Origin: Strix aluco
Taxonomy: Eukaryota; Chordata; Aves; Strigiformes; Strigidae
Assembly: GCF_031877795.1 (NCBI RefSeq)
Contig: NC_133970.1
Coordinates: 46,131,287-46,195,286, forward strand
DNA length: 64,000 nucleotides
Direction of reading: 5' to 3'
Below are positions 2,064 to 20,013 of the stretch, one piece after another. Each line of letters starts with the position of its first letter. Position 1 is the stretch's first letter. A program made the position numbers and the translations under genes. Under the pieces are notes generated by a model, which saw only the letters and a program-made list of their open reading frames with translations, searched no databases and had not been told where the DNA came from.

Positions 2064-2467
2064 TGCTGCGGGAGGATATTGGACCTGCACAACTCTATGA
2101 GAGTTATAACAAGCAAAGCCGTTTATTTTTCCAATAGTACATACTTATGCTCTCGCCAAAGCTCTTACTTCATAATTAGCAAATCAGCAATCAGACAGCT
2201 ATCAACCTTTTCTCCTATCAGCATCAGACCACTCTAACACGCGCTGTGCAGACCAATCACCCTCTCGTTCACGCGCTGTTCACGCGGCGGTAACTTCTCA
2301 CAGTTCAGTACTTCGCCACAGCTCAGTGTTGCAGCTGGCCGCTGTTTTTCCCTGCCACCTTGGCACAGCTCAGCAGTTTCTGATCTTTCTCCCAAGGCCT
2401 GTTTCTCATCAAAGCCCTGCTGTTGATTCAGAGGCTGTGCAGGGCTGACAGGCCCATGTCTCCCACA
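2064..2467 (-). repeat. 3' LTR of the class II provirus
   Basis: This 404-bp repeat has TG...CA ends and aligns end to end with 8096-8499. Read on the minus strand it carries an AATAAA signal (complement near 2125-2130) shortly before the LTR end, as expected for the R region. It lies next to the polypurine tract, which identifies it as the 3' copy. The CACAGA duplication abuts it at 2058-2063. Confidence 0.93.
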
Positions 2468-2486
2468 TCTCCCCCTTCTTTGTTTT
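2468..2486 (-). promoter_or_regulatory. Polypurine tract of the class II provirus
   Basis: On the minus strand the bases just before the 3' LTR read AAAACAAAGAAGGGGGAGA, a typical purine-rich primer for plus-strand DNA synthesis. A 17-base copy of most of it occurs again at 7431-7447 inside the gag region. Confidence 0.8.
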
Positions 2487-2609
2487 ATAGCTGCACCTGC
2501 AAGACTTGTTTCAGAGCTTTATCAATTAAGCTTTAGACAAACTTCAAAAAACACAGCATACCTAAAACAATTCTACAAAAGGCTAAAAATAAAACAGCAG
2601 TTACAGTCA

Positions 2610-2876
2610 CTAGTTGAAAAGAGTAGGACAGTCTTTTTCACCATCACATTTCCAGGACACTGGGATACACTGGGTTGACTGAGGACCACAGCTGATTTCA
2701 TTTACCCGGCATGTTCTCATATGGCACAGTTCAGCACTCTCGTCAGACCCACCCTCGCAGTCCGGATCCCCATCACACTGCCATCTGTTAGGCACACACT
2801 GACCACTGATGCACACAAAATCAGATTCAGCACACGTCTTCTTCACACAAGCACGCTCATCACTGCCATAAAGCAT
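2610..2876 (-). CDS. VLDLR-like LDL-receptor class A frame captured in the provirus
   Basis: This is an open frame of 88 codons from ATG (2876-2874) to TAG (2612-2610) on the minus strand. It starts in the end of one LDL-A module ([12 protein letters not shown]). It then contains a complete module with six cysteines and the acidic calcium-binding pattern CDGDPDC...SDES, and then a second module ([10 protein letters not shown]...CIPVSWKC...CDGEKDC) that stops before its sixth cysteine. From memory the closest family member is VLDLR modules 1 to 3; LRP8 (ApoER2) is second. In host genes of this family successive LDL-A modules are normally on separate exons, so the intronless run suggests cDNA-type capture. 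It lies between integrase and the 3' LTR, where env belongs. There is no signal peptide or membrane segment in frame, so whether it was ever translated is unknown. Solo LTR 2892-3501 sits just upstream of the ATG. Confidence 0.8.
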
Positions 2877-2891
2877 ATGACTAAGTGCTAC

Positions 2892-3501
2892 TGTACTGGG
2901 TGTGGCTGAGCCGGAATTGGTTTTCCCCTGTAGCAGCCCCCATGGTGCTGTGTTTGATGTTGGGAGCTGGCAGGGTGTTGATAGCACACTGGTGCAGTGG
3001 CTACTGCTGAGTGGTGCTTACACAGCACCAAGGCTCTTTCCGACATTTCCCCCCCTCCCACAGTGGGACGGGGTGGGCAAGATCTTGGGAGGGGACACAA
3101 CCAGGACAGCTGACCCCAACTGACCAAAGGGATATTCCAGACCATCTGACGGCTGCTCAGTATAAAGCTGGGAGAAAGGAGGAAGGGGGTGGGGTCACCC
3201 TTGGCCCTCCGAGGCAACCCCTCCGCGTATGGGAGCCCTGCTTCCTGAGAAGGCCCGACATCGCCTGTTCATGGGAAGGAGAGAATAAATCTGTTTGCTT
3301 TTTTTTTGCTTCCGCACGAGGACCTTTGCTTCGCTTTGCTTATATTAAAACTGCTTTTGTTTTACCCACAAGGGTTGGTTTTTTTTCCCTATCTTATTTT
3401 CTTTCCCCTCTTTGCCCTGTTGAGAAAAAAGGGGAACAGTGGGGAAGTGATAGAGCGACTTGGTGGGTACCTGGCATTTAGCAAAGGTCAAACCCCCCAC
3501 A
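2892..3501 (+). mobile_element. Solo LTR (ERV-L-like family) nested in the provirus
   Basis: This is a 610-bp LTR with TGTACTGGG...CCCACA ends and an exact 5-bp duplication GCTAC (2887-2891 and 3502-3506). It is an inverted, diverged copy of the LTRs of the provirus at 13618-20013. It has a TATA-like element (CAGTATAAAGC near 3160) and AATAAA near 3284, both in + orientation. No internal region remains, so it arose by recombination between two LTRs. Confidence 0.92.
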
Positions 3502-3506
3502 GCTAC

Positions 3507-4354
3507 AAAATAAGGAAGATACAGAATAGCACACTTACTTAATGGGGTACTAACATTCAGATCCGCAATTGCTGGGGAACCCTGGCCGGAAATCCTACGC
3601 GATGCGTCCATCCGTAGGTGAGGCATCCAACATCGCTGCAAGCAGGTCCAGCCTCATATATCTAAATCAGCAGGCCAAAATAACTGGCAACTTTCTTTGA
3701 GCAGAAACATCTGCTCTCATCCTCCTGTTGGGTTCCACCCAGAGCCTGGCCACCACTCAAGGGGAAAACCAAGGGAGTTTCTAATAAGGTTAAACACTTG
3801 AGTTCTTAATTCTTAATATTGCTAAACAAAGTTGAATACACACATTCTTATAGCATTTCATCCTTATTAATAACTACATTTTGTCTAAGCTACATCTTTC
3901 ACTAGTGACTAGTAAGCCTATATATGTCATCAAGGAGTTGCAACTACTGTTAGCGTTTTCTCTGAAAAGAATTGGCAACTGCAGTGTGATTAAGGACCGA
4001 GATAGTGTATTTGGTCCTATTGCAGCAGCAAGCATTACCCATCCATTCTGCTTAAATGATCAGTCGAAGAGACCGCAAACTGTCGGCACAGGGGCATCCA
4101 CAGCACCCACAGCCGGCTCCTGAGTGTCCACCAAAAGCTGCCTCTCACGCCTCGGGTGTGGTCGCACACACCTTGCCGGTAACCACCGGGGACCGTGACC
4201 TGTGGAGACACAAGCATAACCTCTTCCCCAGGTTATTAAAGGATCTGCTCCTGCCCAGTTACCACTCTCCAGGTTTTTGCTAACACTTGAGCCTTGCCCT
4301 GGACTTCTTGTTGATCTGGTATCTGCGACAAGAAGTGATGCAATATTGATGGCA
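3507..4354 (-). pseudogene. Region between integrase and the LDL-A frame of the class II provirus
   Basis: The upper end (about 4138-4250, minus strand) reads as a retroviral integrase C-terminal domain with the recognisable motif TWGRGYACVSTG followed by RWLPARCVRPH. Below that the reading frames break and I do not recognise an env surface or transmembrane protein. Near the lower end the minus strand has a pyrimidine-rich stretch ending in TTGTAG, like a splice acceptor, directly before the site where the solo LTR inserted. Confidence 0.6.
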
Positions 4355-4360
4355 CCTGTG

Positions 4361-4693
4361 TGTCGGGGGAGGCAGCGGGTCTGCCTCTAGTCTAACTGAA
4401 GAAGAATTTAACCTTGACGAGATTCCAGTGTATCCATGAGAGGCCAGAAAGTCCCGAGAAGTGCCATGGAAACAAGATTAGAGAACTAAGATAAGAAGAA
4501 CTGTCCTGGCGATTCAGGCGAGAAACTATCACCCAATCGTGAACTATTAGTTACTAAAGTAAACCAATCCTGTATGAACACCTACTTTGAAGAAGGTTAT
4601 AAAAAGGCTTGTTAGAACAATAAAGGGGCTTTTGTAGCCATTTTGGTCATTTCACACAATCTGATGTTTGTCGTGTCTGTCTCTACTGCGCCA
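4361..4693 (+). mobile_element. Solo LTR, class II type, nested in integrase
   Basis: This 333-bp LTR has ends TGTCGGGGGAGG...CTGCGCCA and an exact 6-bp duplication CCTGTG (4355-4360 and 4694-4699). It has a TATA box (TTATAAAAAGG near 4600) and AATAAA about 20 bp further (near 4619), so it is in + orientation, opposite to the host provirus. It splits the integrase region between the catalytic core and the C-terminal domain. Confidence 0.9.
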
Positions 4694-4698
4694 CCTGT

Positions 4699-5498
4699 GA
4701 GTCAGGGGAAATGTTTAAAAAGTTCATGACATATAATACCTTATTTAGCCTTTCGTGAGGTGTAGATTGATCCCCTCCATCTCCCCCTTTTTGTTGTTGC
4801 AATAGATGCTTTAGCGTGCCATGCGTACGCTCCACAATGGCCTGTCCGGTCGGTGAGTGGGGAATGCCGGGCAGATGCTTGACTCCCCACTGTATGGCAG
4901 GACACAAACACTGCTCCAGAAAAGGTATCAACAGACACATGTACACATTTTAACGATCCAAATGCAGCGAAGTGAGTGACGCCAGATTGCCATAATTCTG
5001 AGGAGGTGAGTCCCCGAGGGTTGACACCACTAGCTGTTGAAGAGAGGGAGTCCTCTGGCATTCAGGGCAAGTGGCAATGATGTCTTTAGACTGACACCTT
5101 GATAAAGAAAACTGGTTTTGTATTGCCCTGGTGTTTTGGTGGAAAAATGCATGTGAAAGCTGAGCTTGCTCAAAGACATTTGTATTAGCCACTGTAACAT
5201 GTGCATAGTAACCGGAACAATGATACACACAGGTTCCTGACCAGCACTGCCTACCTTTCATGATCAGTCTGGCAAACATTTCTGGATGAGTAGTGACCGT
5301 CTTGTGCATTTGGTGTGACAATAAAATCCATTTAAGAATAACAAGAGGGTCACTAAGTGTTTCATCCCACTGAAACAGCAGAGCATAGGGCTGCCCTGGA
5401 GGGTTAAATAATATCAGTTGATAGGGATGGCCGGGCACACATCGGGATGCTTGTGTTTCTGACATGGCGTTAGCCACACGGTGGAGATCTTGTTTCAC
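4699..5498 (-). pseudogene. RT connection and integrase remnant (class II pol)
   Basis: On the minus strand, 5498 to about 5300 reads like the thumb/connection part of retroviral RT (YQLILFNPPGQPYALLFQWD region). It passes with almost no gap into an integrase zinc-binding domain (FHQNTRAIQ followed by CPEC). The catalytic core is split over two frames: an aspartate region near VSVDTFSG (about 4930) and the GQAIVERTHGTLK region with its glutamate near 4830. The roughly 120-residue RNase H domain expected between connection and integrase is missing, and at least one frame change is present. It cannot encode a working enzyme as it stands. Confidence 0.78.
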
Positions 5499-5753
5499 TT
5501 TCTCTGTAAGTACTCTGGGTGATGTCAGTGAAGGATCTCCTCACAAAATATCAAACAAGCTATGCAGATCATCATTAGTTAGGCCCAACAACAGCTGTAT
5601 CCAATTTATGGCTCCCAACAGTTTCTGTCAATCATTTAAAGTCTTAACATCAGTTTTAAGTTCAACCTGTTGTGGGACAATGGTCTGTTCACAAATTCTC
5701 CACCCCAGGTAGTGCCACGGTGATGACCTCTGTACCTTTTCAGGTGCTATTTG

Positions 5754-6428
5754 TCACCCCATTTGAGATACTGAGTCTTTGGGTAAAGCAAGAGCCTTTT
5801 CCATGATCTCCTGTGTTTCTGCTGCTATAAGGATGTCATCCATATAATGATAGATAACAGCCTGGGGGACCTGCATTCTAACAGGGCTCAAAGCCTTTGC
5901 AACAAACCACTGACACATCGTGGGGCTGTTTTTCATGCCTTGTGGCAAAACAACCCAGTGGTACCATCTTGCAGGTTCACTGACATTAATACTGGGAACA
6001 GAGAAGGAAAATTTAGGTGCATCATCCAGATGCAATGGAATGGTAAAAACCCAATCCTTTAGATCAATTATTACAAGATGCCAGTTTCAGGGAATCATTG
6101 TTGGGGAGGGCATTCCTGGCTGTAACGTACCCATATCCTCCATGGCATCATGAATGTGTCGGAGATCATGTAAAAGTCACCATTTACCACTTTTCTTAAA
6201 AATAACAAACACCGGGGAGTTCCAAGGACTGGTGGTGGGTACGAGATGTCCTGCACTTAATTGTTCCTGAACTAAATCATTAAGGTGGCACAACTGTTCC
6301 CTTGGCAAGGGCCACTGACCCACCCACACAGGTGATTCTGTTTTCCAGGTTAGTTTCAGGGTGGGTTTAGGGGTGGGCTGTGCTGCAGTGGCAATTAAGA
6401 CAAATTTGATCCAATTTGAGTTCCCCAT
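5754..6428 (-). pseudogene. Reverse transcriptase remnant (class II pol)
   Basis: Two minus-strand open frames (6428-6177 and 6035-5754) are consecutive parts of a retroviral RT. The first has the fingers motif [13 protein letters not shown]. The second has LPQGMKNSPTMCQ and the catalytic box YHYMDDILIA. Tyrosine-methionine-Asp-Asp fits class II retroviruses. About 140 bp between them is disrupted by stops. It follows the dUTPase/protease piece in the expected order. Confidence 0.85.
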
Positions 6429-6440
6429 CGAGCCATACAG

Positions 6441-6911
6441 TCACGACCCCATGATGTAATAGGGGTTTCCAATATAAATGGAGGAATATTTGCTACCCGG
6501 TTCTCTGGGCCCCTTACATGAATGAGATCTTTGCTTTGAAACGTTACAGCATGACCACCAACCCTGAAAAGCACTCGAGTTACCGAAGCTCACAGATATT
6601 ACAGTCACATCCGCGCCAGTATGTAATATGCCTGTCAGTTCAACAGATTCTTCTGCTTTGGTGAGGGCACATTTTACCAGAGGTCGACCTTGTGTCGCTG
6701 TCTGAGCCCAAAATATTTGAGGAGTACCTGCTGATCCAAATCCTGAGTCACCCCGGCTTCTCGGCATACTGTTAGGGGGAGCTGCAGTCAAATAAACAAG
6801 CTGAGCAATTTTTGACCCTTTTGTTACTGAACACGGGGGTACCGGGGTCCAGGCCATAATTCTGATTTCCCCTTCATAATCGGCATCTATGACCCCTGGT
6901 AAAACGAACAA
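6441..6911 (-). pseudogene. dUTPase and protease remnant of the class II provirus
   Basis: The minus-strand frame opens with a dUTPase substrate-binding pattern (PGVIDADYEGEI) and its KGSKIAQLV motif. It continues into an aspartic protease with an altered active site (HTGADVTVIS, where D-T/S-G is usual). Fusion of dUTPase to protease just before RT is typical of betaretrovirus-like elements. The His in place of the catalytic Asp would inactivate the protease. Upstream in-frame sequence (to about 6970) continues the dUTPase but contains a stop. Confidence 0.8.
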
Positions 6912-6959
6912 CCCCTGTAAGGTTGTAGATGATCTTCTGACAATATCCCCTCAGGCAGA

Positions 6960-7670
6960 TGGTACAAGGGTGCACTCTCCCCACAGAGTACGCACCTAAA
7001 TTCAAGACAACAATGAACACAGAGTTACTGCCTCCCGCTAGAGGAGATATTTCACCTGTGACACTTCAAACACTGAGCCCGAACAAACAGGCAGCACCAG
7101 TGACCCAGCGGGCGGGCACTAGGGCGCTCTGTACTAAGGAATGTTCCCTCGTCCTGCACTACCCCCCCACTGGTACAGAGTCTGCCCTGCGCTTCGTTCC
7201 TCTGCGGCCGCTTCCCTCGCGGGATAACGGAACTGCGGGTCAGAGAACTCCGCACTCCGCAGCTGCAGCTGGGCTGCGCCTCACACCCGCAGAACAGTCC
7301 CACACCCACACAAAGGGGCCCTTACACTTATTACTCACACAACATCAAATGACAAATACTACAAACATCAAAACACCATTAAGAATATATAAAGCCCTTG
7401 CTTGTTGATTATGTGGTGCGTCCAGAAAATTCCCCCTTCTTTGTTTTTAAATCAAGGCCTTTAGTGTACTGACCATCAGAGAGGTTTAAAGTTAGTCCTT
7501 TTAGAATGGACAAGGGACGCCGCATCCCAGTGTCAGCACCTTCTGTAAAAACTGCCGCTTTTGGTGTTCGGGGGAGGCGGGACGGACGATCGCGCGGTGC
7601 TAGATGGCCGCAGGCAGTCGCTCCGTGGCGGGGGGGCTTGAGGAGGCCCCAGGCCGCCGCCACCAACTCC
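6960..7670 (-). other. Unassigned segment between gag matrix and dUTPase
   Basis: Capsid and nucleocapsid should lie here, but I find neither a major-homology region nor a Cys-His zinc knuckle in any minus-strand frame. The segment is GC-rich in part and includes a second copy of the polypurine-tract sequence (7431-7447). It probably reflects a deletion or rearrangement. Confidence 0.45.
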
Positions 7671-7675
7671 GCGCT

Positions 7676-7942
7676 TTAAGTGTCCGAAACCAACTTCCAA
7701 GTGGTCGCGAGCTCACTGGCATGCTGATCCCCCTTGGAAATAGCTTCCCACAACTGTTCACCTCTTTCAGCCCATTTTGCTGGTTCAAAGGCTGTGAGGG
7801 TATCGGCAGGATGGCCGTGGTTTCTGCACCATTTAAGTAACCTTCGTACAGAAGTTTCATTATAAGTTATCCCTCTCTTAGAGAGTATATGCAGCAGGAG
7901 TCTGACAGTGGCCGTCTCCTCTGCGGACATGTTCTGCCCCAT
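7676..7942 (-). pseudogene. gag matrix remnant of the class II provirus
   Basis: An 88-codon minus-strand frame begins MGQNMSAEETATV, about 150 bp downstream of the primer-binding site, as a gag start should. Met-Gly at positions 1-2 would allow N-myristoylation. The helical text that follows (LLKWCRNHGHPADTL) resembles alpha/betaretroviral matrix proteins. The frame closes after 88 codons and no capsid follows. Confidence 0.7.
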
Positions 7943-8075
7943 GCTGCCCCCGACTGATCACCTGTCCCGGGTGATTTTCCGTCGATCGACTGTTTTCCAT
8001 CCTCCCTGTCACACCCCGCTGCAGACAGTACCTCCAATCGGGGATCCTCCCGCGGCATCTTCTGGGCTCCATCCT

Positions 8076-8093
8076 GGGACATCGGGGTCACCA
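8076..8093 (-). promoter_or_regulatory. Primer-binding site, tRNA-Trp-like
   Basis: On the minus strand, two bases after the 5' LTR, the sequence reads TGGTGACCCCGATGTCCC. The first 12 bases match the site used by avian alpharetroviruses for tRNA-Trp; the last six do not. The assignment rests on my memory of that site. Confidence 0.6.
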
Positions 8094-8095
8094 TT

Positions 8096-8499
8096 TGTTG
8101 CGGGAGGATATCGGACTTGCACAACTCTATGAGAGTTATAACAAGCAAAGCCGTTTATTCTTCCAATAGTACATACTTATGCTCTCGCCAAAGCTCTTAC
8201 TTCATAATTAGCAAATCAGCAATCAGACAGCTATCAACCTTTTCTCCTATCAGCATCAGACCTCTCTAACACGCGCTGTGCAGACCAATCACCCTCTCAT
8301 TCACGCGCTGTTCACGCGGCGGTAACTTCTCACAGTTCAGTACTTTGCCACAGCTCAGTGTTGCAGCTGGCCGTTGTTTTTCCCTGCCACCTTGGCACAG
8401 CTCAGCAGTCTCTTCTCTTTCTCCCAAGGCCTGTTTCTCATCAAAGCCTGGCTGTTGATTCAGAGGCTGTGCAGGGCTGACAGGCCGATGACTCCCACA
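8096..8499 (-). repeat. 5' LTR of the class II provirus
   Basis: This 404-bp copy is colinear with 2064-2467, with about 14 differences counted by eye. It is flanked on its outer side by CACAGA (8500-8505) and on its inner side by the primer-binding site, which makes it the 5' copy of a minus-strand element. Confidence 0.93.
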
Positions 8500-8505
8500 C
8501 ACAGA

Positions 8506-13195: not shown

Positions 13196-13617
13196 GTGCT
13201 TGATTTGGATCCTAAACAAAGACATTTAATTCCATTTGATGATACCAAACTGAGTGGAGAAGTGGACACTTTGGAAGGGAGAGCCACCCTGCAGGAAGAC
13301 CTGGATAGGCTGGAAGAGTGGGCTAACAAGAATCTTATGAAGTTCAACAAGGAAAAGTCTTGCACCTGGGAAAACATAATCCAGGAGTGCAGCACAGGCT
13401 GGGATCTACCTGGCTGGGGAGCAGCTCTGTGGAAAGGGACCTGGGGGTCCTGGTGGACAACAAGCTCAACATGAGTGACCAGTGTGCTGCTGTGGCCAAC
13501 GGGATGCTGGGTTGCATCAACAAGGGCATCACCAGCAGAGATAAAGAAGTCATTATCCCACTCTACTCAGCACTTCTCAGGCCACACCTGGAATACTGTG
13601 TTCAGTTTTGGTCCTTG
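13196..13617 (+). repeat. CR1 LINE fragment, left part (split by a provirus)
   Basis: Translation over two frames gives the C-terminal part of CR1 reverse transcriptase: FDDTKLSGEVDTLEG, then LERDLGVLVDNKLNMSDQC-like text, then the conserved end IPLYSALLRPHLEYCVQFW. The copy is 5'-truncated, as most CR1 copies are, and has a frame change near 13370. It is interrupted at CCTTG (13613-13617) by the provirus at 13618-20013 and resumes at 20019. Confidence 0.9.
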
Positions 13618-14221
13618 TGTGGTGGTTTGACCTTGGCTAAATGCCAGGTACCCACCAAGTCGCTCTATCACTTCCCCCCCCTTCCCCTTTTTTTCTCAAT
13701 AGGGCAAAGAAGGGAAAGAAAATAAGATAGGAAAACAAAACAACCCTTGTGGGTAAAACAACAGCAGTTTTAATATAAGCAAAGTGAAGCAAAGGTCCGC
13801 GTGCGGAAGCAAAAAAAAGAAAACAGATTTATTCTCTACTTCCCATTAACAGGCGATGTCGGGCCTTCTCAGGAAGCAGGGCTCTGATATGCGTAGCGGT
13901 TGCCTCGGAGGACCAAGGGTGACCCCCCCCCTTCCTCCTTTCTCCCAGCTTTATACTGAGCAGACGTCATATGGTATGGAATATCCCTTTGGTCAGTTCG
14001 GGTCAGCTGTCCTGGTTGTGTCCCCTCCCAAGATCTTGCCCACCCCGTCCCACTGTGGGGGGGGAAATGTCAGAAAGAGCCTTGGTGCTGTGTAAGCACC
14101 ACTCAGCAGTAGCCACACCACCAGTGTGCTATCAACACCCTGCCAGCTCCCAGCATAAAACACAGCACCATGGGGGCTGCTACAGGGGAAAACCAATTCT
14201 GGCTCAGCCAGACCCGGTACA
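13618..14221 (-). repeat. 3' LTR of the young provirus
   Basis: This 604-bp LTR is nearly identical to 19409-20013. On the minus strand it starts TGTACCGGG, has ACGTC plus TATAAAG before the start of R, carries AATAAATCTG near 13827-13836, and ends CCACCACA. A purine-rich tract (AAGGGGTGGAGAC) lies directly upstream at about 14222-14234. Confidence 0.95.
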
Positions 14222-14489
14222 GTCTCCACCCCTTATTCCATACCATTTACGTCATGCCCAGGTCCCACATAACACTCATTTATCCATTCCGTAAGCTTTC
14301 TTCACTCCTCTAGATGTTCAGTGACTTGGCTGCCATCTGTCAAGGTGGATGTTCAGGACAGGAGCAGTATGTTTGACTGTTGGACTCCAGCACCGGCTAG
14401 GTTTGGGTCATCATCGCATGTATCTGGTTCACTCTTCGTCGTTCCTACTTCCTCCATCACTTCCTGCAACATACAACTCAGCTCACAGA

Positions 14490-19400: not shown

Positions 19401-19408
19401 AAATAGAC

Positions 19409-20013
19409 TGTGGTGGTTTGACCTTGGCTAAATGCCAGGTACCCACCAAGTCGCTCTATCACTTCCCCCCCCTTCCCCTTTTTTTCTCAATAGGGCAAAG
19501 AAGGGAAAGAAAATAAGATAGGAAAACAAAACAACCCTTGTGGGTAAAACAACAGCAGTTTTAATATAAGCAAAGTGAAGCAAAGGTCCGCGCGCGGAAG
19601 CAAAAAAAAGAAAACAGATTTATTCTCTACTTCCCATTAACAGGCGATGTCGGGCCTTCTCAGGAAGCAGGGCTCTGATATGCGTAGCGGTTGCCTCGGA
19701 GGACCAAGGGTGACCCCACCCCCTTCCTCCTTTCTCCCAGCTTTATACTGAGCAGACGTCATATGGTATGGAATATCCCTTTGGTCAGTTCGGGTCAGCT
19801 GTCCTGGTTGTGTCCCCTCCCAAGATCTTGCCCACCCCGTCCCACTGTGGGGGGGGAAATGTCAGAAAGAGCCTTGGTGCTGTGTAAGCACTACTCAGCA
19901 GTAGCCACAACACCAGTGTGCTATCAACACCCTGCCAGCTCCCAGCATAAAACACAGCACCATGAGGGCTGCTACAGGGGAAAACCAATTCTGGCTCAGC
20001 CAGACCCAATACA
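19409..20013 (-). repeat. 5' LTR of the young provirus
   Basis: This 605-bp copy pairs with 13618-14221 and is flanked outside by CCTTG (20014-20018). It carries the same ACGTC-TATAAAG promoter block (complement near 19740-19765), so it should drive transcription on the minus strand. Confidence 0.95.

Follow-up and report, generated by a model that had tools for sequence, protein, structure and literature searches.

A provirus in the window (the whole 64,000-nucleotide stretch of Strix aluco DNA analysed here) carries an intronless fragment of the host VLDLR gene, and the arrangement recurs in a multi-copy family with alternative states of the cassette, a finding that adds to an earlier note made on this DNA from its letters. 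Intronless VLDLR exons, shared junctions and the absence of the four host introns searched for from all 62 loci of the two cassette-bearing states argue, with a probability that we put at nearly nine in ten, for retroviral transduction of spliced host VLDLR mRNA followed by amplification, deletion and recombination, with the cassette most likely a passenger.

The cassette lies in an open frame of 88 codons plus stop on the minus strand (2610–2876), the product of which takes in, from VLDLR, the end of LDL-A module 1, the complete module 2 and the larger part of module 3. The LDL-receptor class A family of Pfam (PF00057) matches the frame in two stretches (E 5.4e-22), and among solved structures residues 34–114 of the VLDLR chain 8ufb_V correspond to residues 4–84 of the frame, nearly end to end, with an E value for the whole chain of 2.8e-72; the four structure entries scoring above it are LRP2 chains, each summed over 18–21 matched stretches. 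Searched against its own genome, the frame gave at least 136 matches at E ≤ 0.001 among the best 150 of 266 candidates scored, including host VLDLR exons and other LDL-A genes. These Pfam, structure and own-genome matches rule out a chance LDL-A-like frame, and the Pfam match and translation bear out the reading of the earlier note, which had described one complete module between parts of two others.

VLDLR-derived DNA is confined to 2628–2869 on the minus strand, the bordering parts of the frame (2610–2627 and 2870–2876) being retroviral and base 2869 fitting either source. Read against the host exon map, the cassette joins the last 24 nt of exon 2 (2846–2869, the end of module 1; one difference from the host), the 123 nt of exon 3 (2723–2845, all of module 2; one difference) and 95 nt of exon 4 up to GACTGT (2628–2722, a truncated module 3; no difference), after which the retroviral tail at 2610–2627, also on the minus strand, contributes PTLFN and the stop codon. 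This identity at 240 of 242 positions to exons of the same assembly makes VLDLR the source of the cassette and turns what had been a guess at the gene into an assignment. The VLDLR receptor has a signal peptide, eight LDL-A modules, EGF and propeller parts and a membrane anchor; the cassette, by comparison, keeps parts of modules 1–3 only and lacks the signal peptide, most LDL-A modules, EGF, propeller and anchor. The frame has an ATG, and by eye no signal peptide was seen after it.

The window lies on contig C40 of the 1.41 Gb assembly and the host VLDLR gene on contig C41, at ~29.667–29.672 Mb. Two introns of the host gene, 961 and 846 bp long and each bounded by GT-AG, are missing from the cassette at the exact splice sites, and host introns 2, 3, 5 and 6 match none of the 62 loci, which rules out insertion of genomic VLDLR with its introns. 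The earlier note had taken the uninterrupted exon run to point to capture of a spliced host mRNA, and had named a match to intron sequence as one finding that would speak against it; exon borders that map exactly onto host VLDLR, exact intron removal and the many loci instead support the capture.

The provirus around the cassette (2064–8499, minus strand) is broken and carries later insertions. Its 3′ LTR (2064–2467) and 5′ LTR (8096–8499) are 96.3% identical (15 differences in 404 positions, K80 0.038) and are flanked by a 6-bp target-site duplication, TCTGTG, at 2058–2063 and 8500–8505. Between them lie, all on the minus strand, a dUTPase fragment (6441–6950; PF00692, E 1.2e-11), a reverse transcriptase fragment (5754–6086; PF00078, E 1.1e-21; best PDB chain 7sr6, E 9.4e-31), a pol fragment with the integrase zinc-binding domain (4950–5540; PF02022, E 3.7e-10; best PDB rows 5cz2, a Pol polyprotein, and 3jca and 7usf, both Integrase) and a C-terminal integrase fragment (4060–4386; PF00552, integrase DNA-binding domain, E 1.3e-10), the frame of which ends at 4060. 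We take 7sr6 to be from HERV-K and 5cz2 and 3jca from MMTV. The dUTPase and the nearest reverse transcriptase and integrase structures agree with the class II assignment made before, and by sequence the element is probably betaretrovirus-like.

The cassette sits between pol and the 3′ LTR, in the position of env as first proposed, and the ORFs run against Pfam from the end of integrase to the 3′ LTR, a subset of the frames there, gave no env family. Three ORFs that overlap or lie near the interval separating integrase from the solo LTR described below (3502–4059, minus strand, aligned to other copies) match no Pfam family at E ≤ 1, and a hydrophobic stretch in another frame of the remaining 3′ internal sequence (2468–2609, minus strand) may be a transmembrane remnant. 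Copies read without the cassette are just as short over this span, and the provirus family is apparently env-less.

The provirus also contains a solo LTR that belongs to a different element (2892–3501, minus strand), which the earlier note did not mention. With ends TG..CA and GTAGC on both sides (2887–2891 and 3502–3506), this LTR sits immediately upstream of the cassette and, being inserted in the provirus, is later than it; it is absent at this place from seven other copies compared, and repeats 93% identical to it lie in opposite orientation at 13616–14223 and 19408–20013. Some 320 bp at ~4370–4692 of the window copy, with a short repeat at the ends, are missing from one other copy (L002) and are perhaps another insertion.

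Across the assembly the cassette occurs in two states and is lost in a third. State A, to which the window copy belongs (exons 2–4), was found at no fewer than 55 places, 40 of them on contig C40, which makes up 3.5% of the assembly; state B, read at 7 loci, has the 5′ junction of A followed by other exons (2–3 joined to 5–7); and state C, at 32 places, has no cassette and a 9-nt sequence, AAAGACTGT, in its stead (a reversed control gave 0). This sequence looks like a VLDLR scar, and could instead be native to the ERV. Most A and C places are on C40, which is probably the W chromosome.

Junction words, scored with up to 2 mismatches over the 55 A and 7 B loci, do not occur in host VLDLR gene DNA. 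Exon 3|exon 4 is present in all 55 A loci and exon 4|ERV in 54, the latter word also matching 2 of 5 C loci because the scar resembles it; exon 3|exon 5 and exon 5|exon 6 are each present in all 7 B loci, and exon 6|exon 7 in 4. The ERV|exon 2 junction was recovered in 45 A and 6 B loci and exon 2|exon 3 in 47 A and 4 B loci; in some of the 10 A loci in which the 5′ junction is missing (L026, L027) the upstream sequence is rearranged. The scar is the joining point in each of the five loci read that lack the cassette, in two of them in diverged form. The same virus–host 5′ junction therefore stands at independent insertions, a few places being near-identical duplicates, and its absence from other copies, which the earlier note had held would undermine a capture, is not what we see. 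We also weighed a splice acceptor upstream of the cassette, and since the TTTTGTAG form occurs in at most 11 of 46 loci tallied, we make no splice claim. At four places on contigs C10 and C202 (L020, L065, L066, L067) cassette and flanks are identical in opposite orientations, reflecting segmental duplication or an assembly haplotig.

The consensus of 42 clean A copies agrees with the host at each of the 241 positions compared, individual copies differing at 1–12. The 7 B copies share three differences from the host inside captured exons 5–7 (a fourth position lies past the captured part), shift frame inside the cassette and, in the six that could be compared, differ from the host by 4.7–7.5%, L011 being left out as a deletion upsets its alignment. 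In three of them (L010, L012, L014) exon 3 contains a short additional repeat of the exon 2 tail, which points to renewed slippage of the template. On a tree built from upstream-flank sequence (58 rows: 48 of 54 A, 5 of 7 B and 5 of 5 C, the C rows picked by similarity to the window; 34 of 52 inner branches weak), the labels A, B and C were no more clustered than shuffled labels, as expected if recombination exchanged cassette states.

We propose that VLDLR mRNA would have been packaged together with viral RNA, and that reverse transcriptase would have switched template into the spliced VLDLR sequence and later switched back; close to the junction, VLDLR exon 2 shares the motif GCAGTGA with the ERV sequence that follows the B cassette. 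The first product may have extended to exon 7, with states A and B arising from it through internal deletions or another round of exchange with VLDLR mRNA, state C by deletion of the A cassette with AAAGACTGT left behind, and the states then being amplified and recombined. Such a full exon 2–7 ancestor is inferred, since no locus with the complete capture was found: among the best 150 of 316 candidates scored, the first modules of exon 5 match closely only the host gene. VLDLR mRNA is abundant in oocytes, and our guess is that VLDLR was captured for this reason.

That A and B descend from two captures of VLDLR mRNA, B first and A later through exchange between B RNA and fresh VLDLR mRNA, is possible but doubtful. 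The lack of any fixed difference from the host in the 241 nt of A, set against the three shared by the B copies and their greater divergence, would fit such a sequence of events, as would the presence of exon 4 in A and its absence from B; however, the A and B comparisons rest on different exons, and a single capture with two deletions accounts equally well for the shared 5′ junction. We consider it unlikely that state C is ancestral, with AAAGACTGT native to the ERV and providing the homology for the jump: C is numerous, at its 32 places, but two B loci (L015 and L011) have other sequence between the 5′ flank and CTACTC, so that C as ancestor needs extra steps. In these same two loci ~38 nt of the ERV sequence that precedes the cassette reappear behind it. 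A later insertion with its own target duplication, which the earlier note had weighed against capture, finds only a faint echo in this repeat, which is better explained as what a jump back upstream in reverse transcription would leave.

If transduction of spliced mRNA is the origin, the cassette might still have been kept for a function. Selection was assessed on the 42 clean A copies, after removal of L026, L027 and L058 (first 54 nt not homologous), 6 near-identical duplicates (L017, which occupies the site of L002, among them) and 5 copies that had diverged or were poorly covered. Pairwise dN/dS was 0.68 (bootstrap CI 0.45–1.05), against 0.66 in a 45-copy set that includes the three misaligned copies. 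Private variants (60 nonsynonymous, 17 synonymous, 6 stops) and shared variants (38, 13 and 0) both have nonsynonymous-to-synonymous ratios that fit the neutral expectation and do not differ from each other (Fisher P 0.67), and codon positions 1, 2 and 3 vary equally (4.5, 4.9 and 4.3%; 21 well-aligned copies). Cysteine codons changed about as often as others (2.2 versus 2.4 changes per codon in the 45 copies with the three misaligned ones). Stop-free copies number 38 of 42, versus 33.4 ± 2.5 expected by random placement (nominal P 0.04; 41 of 45, P 0.012, with the misaligned copies), and copies differ less in the cassette (4.5%) than in the upstream (6.6%) or downstream flank (9.2%; 21 copies); neither result is clean, as relatedness of the copies, flank subtypes and the choice of loci by protein search could lie behind both.

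The cassette is most likely a passenger, because its drift is close to neutral and cassette-free copies spread as well; weak constraint is still conceivable given the slight stop deficit and the lower divergence than the flanks. It is very unlikely that the LDL-A frame is made as a protein, be it a secreted decoy, a receptor block or a retroviral chimera, and was selected during virus replication. The frame is open in most strong matches and in many copies runs on upstream into retroviral sequence (134 aa), and the stop deficit and low cassette divergence point the same way, but dN/dS, the neutral ratio shared by both classes of variant, the evenness of codon positions and the unspared cysteine codons do not; moreover, the last part of module 3 is missing, a signal peptide is not seen by eye, the B copies shift frame within the cassette and the C copies have lost it and spread. 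The suggestion in the earlier note of a product that blocks receptors or ligands accordingly receives no support from the selection tests.

A LINE-made processed VLDLR pseudogene, picked up by the retrovirus or inserted into the provirus, is most improbable: it would yield an intronless, partial sequence, and the ~38-nt repeat flanking the cassette in two B loci could be its target duplication, but 38 nt is long for a LINE target duplication, inspection by eye of the junctions of 7 B and 5 A loci showed neither a poly(A) tract nor any exon past exon 7, and both cassette ends lie inside coding exons joined to ERV sequence in the 12 loci read. Capture from a retrocopy instead of mRNA would be compatible with the sequence.

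LTR–LTR distances of six copies range from 0.034 to 0.064, the pairs being two LTRs found in one stretch, with the target duplication checked in the window copy only. At an avian substitution rate of ~2e-9 per site and year this gives, as a rough guide, insertion ages of roughly 9–16 million years. Protein matches of the cassette include two proteins of the snowy owl (Bubo scandiacus) and one of Otus sunia; in P0002, a snowy owl protein, and P0008 the match list has sequences that extend across the junction into its retroviral side. No match was found in viral contigs or phage records, two sets that may omit records near the source genome. Short VLDLR-like models from waterfowl and metagenomes (P0019, P0020, P0024, P0030, P0032, P0004, P0029), several of them, duck models included, with modules 4 and 5 fused, are perhaps another VLDLR retrocopy in birds; the metagenome protein P0004 stays in a single frame across exon borders, and its modules are partly deleted. 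It is quite unlikely, though conceivable, that bird retroelements took up VLDLR more than once, in the present lineage and perhaps in waterfowl, because oocytes, in which W-linked retroviruses are expressed, are rich in its mRNA, and that the LDL-A fragment aided the element in the female germ line before decaying.

In acute transforming retroviruses, recombination in the course of reverse transcription puts host oncogene cDNA in the place of viral genes; these viruses are exogenous and selected for their effect on growth, whereas the present family has no clear sign of function. Here the source gene, the splice junctions, two deletion states, a scarred loss state and dozens of copies are found in one assembly, so that the steps of capture, rearrangement and loss can each be followed directly. 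The avian W has been proposed as a refuge for retroviruses, and, as far as the available portion of that report goes, the enrichment on contig C40, probably the W, fits this proposal (PMC8310711). Host-mRNA capture by retroviruses has been called relatively uncommon (PMC4299795), and a VLDLR-carrying retrovirus was not reported among the literature matches listed, which comprised titles and abstract beginnings and covered few subscription journals. Crocodilian ERVs, as described in the accessible part of one report, captured KIT-ligand and nectin3 mRNA (PMC4299795). CrocERV29 resembles the present case in having taken up a host mRNA after pol, but its KIT-ligand insert lies between pol and env with no significant viral loss and keeps a soluble-form ORF under purifying selection (PMC4299795). 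CrocERV31 is likewise a multi-copy lineage with a host mRNA, nectin3, in place of env, for which spread by retrotransposition was inferred; its predicted protein, however, spans the gene and is reported to be under purifying selection (PMC4299795), whereas here a 242-nt internal fragment drifts near neutrality. The VLDLR family is thus a further case of a known kind, set apart from the crocodilian ones by how small the captured fragment is, by drift close to neutrality and by alternative cassette states alongside cassette loss.
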